From Rufibacter radiotolerans (GTDB lineage: Bacteria; Bacteroidota; Bacteroidia; Cytophagales; Hymenobacteraceae): 64,000 nucleotides of DNA. Of this stretch, positions 36,204 to 38,123 are shown in pieces (positions within the stretch are counted from its first letter, which is position 1; the number at the start of each line of letters is the position of its first letter). The position numbers and the translations under genes were made by a program. Under the pieces are notes generated by a model. The model saw only the letters and a program-made list of their open reading frames with translations, was not told the origin of the DNA and ran no database searches. Location: the NCBI RefSeq assembly GCF_001078055.1, contig NZ_CP010777.1, positions 3,563,001 to 3,627,000 of the forward strand, read 5' to 3'.

Positions 36204-38123
36204 ATGGAGAATTTTGTTGTATCTGCTAGGAAATACCGCCCGGCCACCTTTGACAGTGTGGTGGGGCAGCACCATATTACTACTACTTTAAAGAACGCAA
36301 TCAGCAGTAACCACCTGGCCCAGGCGTTCCTTTTCTGCGGCCCGAGGGGCGTGGGCAAGACCACTTGCGCGCGTATTCTGGCCAAGACCATCAACTGCCA
36401 GAACCTGACGGCTGAGGTAGAGGCCTGCAATACCTGTGACTCCTGTAAGAGCTTCAATACCAACAGCTCCTTCAATGTGCATGAGCTGGATGCGGCGTCT
36501 AACAACTCGGTAGATGACATCAGAAACCTGGTGGAGCAGGTGCGCTATGCGCCCCAGACGGGCAAGTACAAGATCTATATCATAGATGAGGTGCACATGC
36601 TCTCCAACTCGGCGTTCAACGCGTTTCTGAAGACCCTGGAGGAGCCGCCGTCCTACGCTATTTTCATTCTGGCTACTACTGAGCGTCATAAGATCATCCC
36701 CACCATTTTATCACGGTGCCAGATCTTTGACTTCAACCGCATTCAGATTGAAGACATGGTGCGGCACCTTGACAGCATTGCCGGCAAAGAGCAAATCAAA
36801 GCCGATGCCGATGCCCTGCACCTGATCGCCCAGAAAGCCGACGGCGCCCTGCGCGATGCCTTGTCCATCTTTGACCAGATGGTGACCTTCTCGGGCAACC
36901 ACCTCACCTACAAGGCCACCGTGCAGAACCTGCACATCCTGGACTATGACTATTACTTCCGGCTCACAGACTTCCTGCTCACGCAGAATCTGAGCGGTGC
37001 GTTGCTTTTATATGATGAGATCCTGAAGAACGGTTTTGACAGCCATAACTTCGTGCTTGGTATTGGCGAGCACTTCCGGAGTCTCTTGGTATGCAAAGAC
37101 CAGGTAACCATTCAGTTGCTGCAGGTCTCTGAGAATATAAAGGCGCAATACGCGGTGCAGGCCCAGGAGGCTTCGCTCAGTTTCCTGCTGTCAGGATTGA
37201 ACCTGGTAGGTACCTGTGACCAGAACTTTAAATCTACCAAGAACCAGCGGCTGCATGTAGAGCTGCTACTCATGAAACTGGCGCATCTGCCCCACGCCCT
37301 GCAACTGGCCCAAGACGTCTCTGTAACCGGAGAGGTTAAAAAAAAAACTAATGGAAGTTCCGGCATAACCGCGCCAGCTCCTTCCCTTCCTGCCCCGTCG
37401 GCCCCGGCACCAGCCGTAACTGCCCCGGCAGCGCCGCCGGTTTTGGCCCCTTCTGCGCAAAACACTGCAGAAACGCACCACAACACCGCCCCATCAGACA
37501 TGGATTCGGGCGAAGACCCCATCTTTGACACGTACCCAGAGGAGGCGCCTTCATTGGTGCCTGAAATGGCCAAACCCGCTCCGGTCATGGCTGCCCCGGC
37601 GGCTCCGTTGCGCACCGCCTCGTCTCCCCTGGCCAGCCGCAAAGTCTCCAAACTGCCCAGCCTCAAGAACATTGAGGAACGGGTGGCAGCCTCGGCGGCG
37701 CCAATGGTAGAGGTGCTGGAGGAGGAAACCGAAGCCTACGTGCCCGGCACTCTGCCCACCATTAACGCCCATAAACTAAAGCAGCTCTGGCAACTGTACG
37801 TAGACCGCGTCAAGCACACCGACCGCACCCTGGAGTACACCATCCTGAACCGTGAGTGGTACTTTGATGCCGAGAAAGCCGAAGTACACCTGCAGGTGGA
37901 AAACGAGGTGCAGGTAGCCGAATTCAACAGCTTTAAGCCCGAGTTTCTTCTGTTTCTGCGCCAGGGACTGGGCCATAACCGCCTGCAGGTGACCATAGAC
38001 GTGGTACAGCAGGAAAACGGCCGCAACCTCTACACTTCCCAGGACAAGTACAATTACCTGTCGGAGCTTTACCCGGCACTCAAAGATCTGAAAACCCGCC
38101 TGGGCCTGGACACCGATTTCTAA
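36204..38123 (+). CDS. dnaX: DNA polymerase III subunit tau (and gamma)
   Basis: 639 residues, the size of E. coli tau (643). It is the ATPase of the clamp loader. Walker A GPRGVGKTT (46-54), zinc cysteines C65, C75, C78 and C81, Walker B IIDEVHML (127-133), sensor 1 ILATTE and the SRC motif (170-172) are all present. Domain III ends near residue 375. Residues about 378-500 are an Ala/Pro-rich linker, followed by a tau-specific C-terminal domain (about 520-639). Codons 379-381 are a run of ten A (37338-37347); a -1 shift there reads AAC then TAA at once, giving a gamma-like form of about 382 residues (see findings). The gene ends with a clear hairpin terminator. Confidence 0.97.
   Translation: MENFVVSARKYRPATFDSVVGQHHITTTLKNAISSNHLAQAFLFCGPRGVGKTTCARILAKTINCQNLTAEVEACNTCDSCKSFNTNSSFNVHELDAASNNSVDDIRNLVEQVRYAPQTGKYKIYIIDEVHMLSNSAFNAFLKTLEEPPSYAIFILATTERHKIIPTILSRCQIFDFNRIQIEDMVRHLDSIAGKEQIKADADALHLIAQKADGALRDALSIFDQMVTFSGNHLTYKATVQNLHILDYDYYFRLTDFLLTQNLSGALLLYDEILKNGFDSHNFVLGIGEHFRSLLVCKDQVTIQLLQVSENIKAQYAVQAQEASLSFLLSGLNLVGTCDQNFKSTKNQRLHVELLLMKLAHLPHALQLAQDVSVTGEVKKKTNGSSGITAPAPSLPAPSAPAPAVTAPAAPPVLAPSAQNTAETHHNTAPSDMDSGEDPIFDTYPEEAPSLVPEMAKPAPVMAAPAAPLRTASSPLASRKVSKLPSLKNIEERVAASAAPMVEVLEEETEAYVPGTLPTINAHKLKQLWQLYVDRVKHTDRTLEYTILNREWYFDAEKAEVHLQVENEVQVAEFNSFKPEFLLFLRQGLGHNRLQVTIDVVQQENGRNLYTSQDKYNYLSELYPALKDLKTRLGLDTDF
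37329..37351 (+). promoter_or_regulatory. Candidate programmed frameshift/slippage site in dnaX
   Basis: GGAGAGG (37329-37335) resembles a Shine-Dalgarno stimulator and is followed by A10 (37338-37347) and CTAATG. In frame 0 it reads Val-Lys-Lys-Lys-Thr; in the -1 frame AAC is followed directly by TAA (37349-37351). Confidence 0.65.

Follow-up and report, generated by a model that had tools for sequence, protein, structure and literature searches.

Slippage of RNA polymerase has been described at the dnaX gene of Thermus, and the RNA-DNA hybrid within which a transcript is held measures 9-10 bp (PMC5009743). The same paper describes, in an insertion sequence (IS) element of Roseiflexus, a nascent stem-loop adjacent to the 5' side of the slip motif that drives slippage. 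Antonov et al. 2013 reported dnaX genes split over two ORFs, with 10 A's in 9 of 17 predicted genes, and proposed slippage for them (PMC3711429). Both slippage in Thermus and split dnaX genes with A10 having been published, the phenomenon is of a known kind. The ribosomes of Bacteroidia are described as not recognising Shine-Dalgarno sequences (PMC9976891), and F. johnsoniae retains the prfB frameshift motif, though the shift is reportedly inefficient (PMC12421855). Here we describe a dnaX gene that, judging from its sequence and those of its relatives, probably carries a programmed RNA-polymerase slippage site through which one gene would supply two clamp-loader subunits.

The window, by which we mean the whole stretch of 64,000 nucleotides analysed, is part of a 4.82-Mb genome (G000:C1:3563001-3627000). 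Its dnaX gene scores 814 bits against the NCBIfam gamma/tau model NF011531 (cut-off 685). An earlier note on this DNA had pointed to ten A's in dnaX followed at once by a stop in the -1 frame, had placed them at the end of the domain III part and had predicted a gamma subunit of about 382 residues. Direct reading bears out all of this (Table 1). The run lies in phase 0, taking up codons 379-381 and the first base of ACT, and the -1 frame across it reads AAA-AAA-AAC-TAA; the Pfam match to domain III extends to residue 368 and leaves ten residues before the run. A second TAA, in the +1 frame, was absent from the earlier note and is predicted to give a longer gamma variant if one A is lost or two are gained.

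Table 1. Features of dnaX and its A run in the window
Feature	Position	Strand	Remarks
dnaX, tau reading frame, 639 aa	36204..38123	+	ATG at 36204, ORF end 38123, 639 codons
Stem-loop adjoining run	37314..37337	+	arms 37314-37323 and 37328-37337; loop 37324-37327
A10, putative slip run	37338..37347	+	exactly ten A; conserved in 16/16 genus members
TAA, -1 frame stop (gamma)	37349..37351	+	+11 from run start; stop here in 16/16 genus members
Predicted gamma, 382 aa, C-terminus VKKKN	36204..37351	+	direct reading; needs move to -1 frame in A run
TAA, +1 frame stop	37366..37368	+	+28 from run start; stop here in 16/16 genus members

Runs of this length are not rare in such DNA. The window has two A9 matches, both in one run, where 2.46 are expected (sd 2.13); the window genome has 15 A10 matches, counted as 12 runs, and matches per genome range from 3 to 16 across the 16 genus members. 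Because a single A10 is thus unremarkable, we did not count its rarity in favour of a function. Elsewhere in the window genome, locus L060 (C1:1293225-1293235) has a sense-strand A11 in a 506-codon open span, by eye a lipoprotein with TolB-like repeats, and is a second possible slippage site. At locus L066 a sense T10 lies in a 451-codon open span, by eye an MFS transporter.

Though a single such run is within chance, chance does not give the conservation of the A10 in dnaX. The first search covered 59 genomes, each of which has dnaX. The earlier note had proposed looking for the run and its adjacent stop in close relatives, and both are there: all 16 Rufibacter genomes, the window's included, have A10 in the same phase with both stops. 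(The genus name comes from L165, Rufibacter hautae, whose dnaX stretch is identical to that of L009.) The stops of both frames persist while their spelling varies, the -1 stop being TAA in 15 genes and TGA in one, the +1 stop TAG in 14 and TAA in two. Upstream of the site, lysine codons in the same 16 genes are divided between AAA (156) and AAG (150), and only 3 of 17 invariant lysine columns are AAA in 16/16; at the site, all three are AAA in 16/16.

To place the site in the class, we drew on a phylum sample of 296 genomes, of which 292 were matched and part fetched, together with 80 named loci, and searched for runs from -60 to +130 nt relative to where the aligned N-terminal part ends. After removal of the repeats L075, L076, L084, L104 and L165 (the same as L009), A9 or longer stood at the site in 175 of 206 distinct class loci, and exactly A10 in 144. 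The remaining 31 had no such run at the site, among them L193, L201 and L228 (Bacteroides or Bacteroidaceae). With targeted additions, and with the repeats L324 and L332 removed, the counts were 235 and 189 of 283 loci; because the additions were partly picked for short frames (G378, G499, G362, G397, G503) and partly aimed at one genus, these are not a fair draw, and the 206-locus counts come nearer to one. Outside the class, A9 was present near the site in two of 18 loci, L159 and L163, perhaps of separate origins. We call g5 and g6 Hymenobacter-like by their likeness to L166-L168 and f25 Flavobacteriaceae by its likeness to L241 (Aquimarina); that g3 is Pontibacter-like, and the label Flavobacterium, are our own guesses.

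The frame in which tau continues beyond the run is not fixed. Of the 235 loci whose run is A9 or longer, 166 continue tau in frame 0, 65 in -1 and four in +1; by the codon phase in which the run starts, they divide into 84 (phase 0), 92 (phase 1) and 59 (phase 2). In every such gene of the 206-locus set in which tblastn found the C-terminal domain, the frame of that domain was the longest open frame. A FastTree phylogeny of N-terminal proteins (273 rows, repeats among L263-L313 removed beforehand, no support values used) needs the layout to have switched 26 times or more among genes whose run is A9 or longer: the run has lasted where the layout has not. Even a new run length can persist: L299 and L304, each with A9 and tau in -1, are placed together on the family tree with good support (SH-aLRT 98). 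In the four loci with tau in +1, L115 and L215 (A10) and L285 and L306 (A11), one -1 ribosomal shift cannot yield tau. The A11 of L285 and of L306 comes from single genomes each and could reflect homopolymer sequencing errors. The layout of L115 is shared by none of the 29 other sampled genomes of its genus, in which L316 and L328 have tau in -1.

We examined stops in the two other frames over clusters at 80% identity, weighting by cluster rather than by gene and counting a frame as closed if a stop fell within 22 nt. For the frame in which -1 ribosomal frameshifting requires a stop, this held in 0.86 of 45 clusters with tau in 0 and in 0.94 of 31 clusters with tau in -1, against 0.30-0.53 in controls. 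The +1 frame was closed in 0.79 and 0.76 of the same clusters, against 0.24-0.43 at control positions. Since a closed +1 frame is a need of slippage only, this favours slippage over a -1 ribosomal shift. With amino acids held fixed, stops were closer than expected from synonymous choice at p < 0.05 in only 1.7% and 0.6% of 173 genes for the single frames and in 14.5% for both together, and median stop distances were 22 and 13 nt against synonymous expectations of 46 and 25 nt. The amino-acid-fixed excess is small, so the closeness of the stops is mainly due to the linker amino acids chosen, and this counts against the reading as a slippage site. These tests left out two genes with a tau frame below 400 nt, and the cluster test also left out two +1 genes.

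Directly upstream of the run, Rufibacter dnaX has an inverted repeat of 9-10 bp whose 3' arm ends one base before the first A, and this stem-loop ending at the start of the A10 is new here. In the window, the stem has one G-G mismatch, which weakens it, and one G-U pair at its base, and folds as RNA (37310-37337) at -10.5 kcal/mol (z -2.86); the hairpin of L004 folds at -16.1 kcal/mol. Compared with synonymous shuffles, the stem stood out in 16/16 Rufibacter genes at p 0.01 or less (window p 0.01). Against plain letter shuffles 14/16 reached 0.05, and the window did not (p 0.1). Over 14 distinct sequences, 99.2% of the stem cells pair. Compensatory change is limited to one pair, the fourth, which is G-C in ten sequences, C-G in three and G-G in one, that of the window. 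The amino acids change on both sides of this pair (Val/Leu, Asp/Glu), and the DNA tree has at least two changes on its 5' side and at least three on its 3' side, C-G having a single origin in 20% of bootstrap trees. The number of cells paired together with the covariation score was matched by 6 of 500 shuffles; pairs changed on both sides were not in excess, 330 of 500 shuffles reaching the same number.

The earlier note had read GGAGAGG, just upstream of the run, as a stimulatory Shine-Dalgarno sequence. That heptamer lies in the 3' arm of the stem-loop, and Bacteroidia ribosomes are described as not recognising Shine-Dalgarno sequences (PMC9976891); the stimulatory role is not supported, and we set it aside. 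The other half of the proposal, a slippery A10 placed to make gamma, is supported, run and stop being conserved in close relatives. Between ribosome and polymerase the note had made no choice.

In other lineages the stem is found unevenly. In family f25 the stem has a different sequence (CTCTATCA/TGATGGAG); of 29 loci taken without selection, 24 reached p ≤ 0.05 and five fell short. We rely on this count because an earlier f25 set (51/51) had been picked by eye after the stems were seen; in that eye-picked set 98.8% of stem cells pair, with one compensatory cell. In genus g37, which belongs to f25, the stem reached p ≤ 0.05 against synonymous shuffles in 30/30 genes. When these 30 genes are taken together with 20 more from f25, TCT, ATC and GAT in the stem never vary, nor do GCC and GGA as long as the amino acid stays the same, whereas codons -8 to -16 vary synonymously. 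Locus L120, outside the codon-profile set, has different stem codons (TCC, ATT, AAT). Among five named Flavobacteriaceae-like loci, only L241 reached p ≤ 0.05, as did 11 of 43 Hymenobacter-like loci and two of six in g4. Weighted by cluster over the whole class, the share at p ≤ 0.05 was 0.245 of 78 clusters, the nominal expectation being 0.05. A strong stem thus marks certain lineages, while many others lack one.

An A10 holds the heptamer A_AAA_AAA in every phase, so the ribosome could shift or slide on it as well. Programmed -1 ribosomal frameshifting at this heptamer, making gamma as in E. coli, would fit the -1 stop that follows immediately, and two related genera have sites that resemble ribosomal-frameshift sites in their short runs. 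In g3 (22 loci: L020, L023-L026, L263, L265-L267, L269-L273, L305, L307-L313), the site is A7GCTAA in 21 loci, the -1 stop falling at +9, and several downstream codons are frozen (GCT, GTA and GCC in 21/21, ACC in 20/21); L305 has one A fewer (A6G) and is split, with A_AAA_AAG and tau in -1. Both g2 loci (L028, L029) likewise combine A_AAA_AAG with a tau frame of -1. Compared with shuffles, upstream stems stood out in 0/22 loci of g3 and 0/2 of g2, and downstream stems in 3/22 and 2/2. For g2 (n=2) the mean downstream z is -3.96 and the downstream hairpin is clear; for g3 the mean is -0.86, no better than in Rufibacter, and such a hairpin is no more than suggested. The A10 genera group together on the family tree (SH-aLRT 83), g2 and g3 lying outside at an unresolved fork; because outgroup rows have A10, the short sites are probably derived.

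In Rufibacter itself, folding is somewhat stronger than in shuffles over the 55 nt beyond the run (mean z -1.07; control -0.05). This slight excess also speaks for frameshifting, but stems starting 1-8 nt past the run beat synonymous shuffles in 0/16 genes, and we reject a downstream hairpin there, the weak mean z notwithstanding. Frameshifting further meets a class in which Shine-Dalgarno sequences go unrecognised (PMC9976891), four relatives that need a +1 change, and a +1 frame that is closed as well. In addition, the run is held at ten although seven A's would suffice for a ribosomal shift. Taken together, these points make -1 frameshifting an unlikely source of gamma in Rufibacter.

A second ribosomal explanation, in which ribosomes slide along successive AAA codons unaided by programmed stimulators and terminate out of frame in both directions, would account for the +1 stops and the +1 layouts, and E. 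coli ribosomes do slide on iterated AAA, possibly both forward and backward (PMC4363877). In the cell-free system of that report, however, the minimum was 11 A's, though shorter runs slid in a stalled set-up (PMC4363877). Furthermore, the upstream stem would be enclosed by a ribosome that decodes the run and could then not fold, and we regard sliding as very improbable. That the run is a mere lysine patch or the product of drift, with tau the only product, is scarcely credible: lysines at a domain boundary may be useful in themselves, and one A10 is within chance for a window of this kind, but AAA AAA AAA is kept in 16/16 genes whose upstream lysines are spelled both ways, the stops stay while codons change, and no single frame could give tau in relatives whose gene is split.

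Polymerase slippage is favoured over the ribosome because of the relatives, those with +1 layouts included, and because of the closed +1 frame. Ten A's amount to about one hybrid length (9-10 bp, PMC5009743), so a run of this size would fill the RNA-DNA hybrid, and a transcript realigning within it would leave some mRNAs with A's gained or lost. Messengers with 10 or 13 A's would yield tau. Those with 9, 11 or 12 A's would run into a near stop in another frame and yield gamma, made up of domains I-III. In Rufibacter, the nascent stem-loop, closing right behind the hybrid, would probably promote realignment; a hairpin at the edge of the A10 would be expected to close in the RNA exit channel while the last A's are being made, and stem and run would be arranged like an intrinsic terminator whose U's are replaced by A's. 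The sequences establish the run, the stops, the conservation of both, the shifts in layout and the constraint acting on the stem, whereas slippage and its rate, the part played by the stem and the presence of gamma in the cell are what we infer.

A broader proposal, to which we give about even credence, is that across Bacteroidia, whose ribosomes are blind to Shine-Dalgarno sequences, the choice between tau and gamma has been passed to RNA polymerase through a hybrid-length A10 and, in several lineages, a lineage-specific hairpin adjacent on the 5' side. The gene would thereby have become indifferent to frame, its layout moving among 0, -1 and +1 many times, and a ribosomal shift would have replaced this module in g2 and g3. 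The prediction is that slippage by RNA polymerase sets the make-up of the clamp loader in much of a bacterial class. Related genera with A10 and an upstream hairpin on one side and short runs on the other offer natural pairs for asking when the polymerase and when the ribosome serves the same end. As a practical matter, dnaX will look broken in many Bacteroidia assemblies though it probably works.

Among the matches listed in the open-access literature, titles and abstract openings mentioned neither a stem-loop adjoining a dnaX A run nor class-wide changes of dnaX layout. The known systems each share part of what is seen in the window. The E. coli dnaX -1 frameshift has the same product, the same position in the gene and an immediate -1 stop. 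Unlike E. coli, which uses A_AAA_AAG, a Shine-Dalgarno sequence and a downstream stem-loop, the window has no such downstream stem and no in-frame A_AAA_AAG, its AAA AAA AAA ACT fitting A_AAA_AAA only. The split layout of Antonov et al. 2013 matches 65 class loci in our set, whereas in the window gamma and tau parts share one frame in a single 639-codon ORF; all 17 of their genes are -1, and the portions of that paper drawn on here mention no stem-loop (PMC3711429). The window shares with the Roseiflexus IS element a stem-loop that abuts the slip motif on its 5' side. The Roseiflexus motif, however, is a mixed T5C5 in a transposase gene and gives one-base deletions only (PMC5009743), whereas that of the window is a homopolymer in a replication gene. 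The dnaX gene of Thermus thermophilus (A9) agrees with the window in having a run of at least nine A's at the end of the gamma part, tau in frame 0 and near stops in both other frames (+11 and +28 nt in the window), and its gamma comes from slipped mRNAs, the product route proposed here as well (PMC1088944, PMC5009743). Slippage of the Thermus type would be expected to give mRNAs that differ in the number of A's and a tau to gamma ratio near 1:1. Unlike Thermus thermophilus, the window has A10 and a stem-loop directly 5' of the run and belongs to another phylum, and among its relatives the run survives changes of the tau frame.
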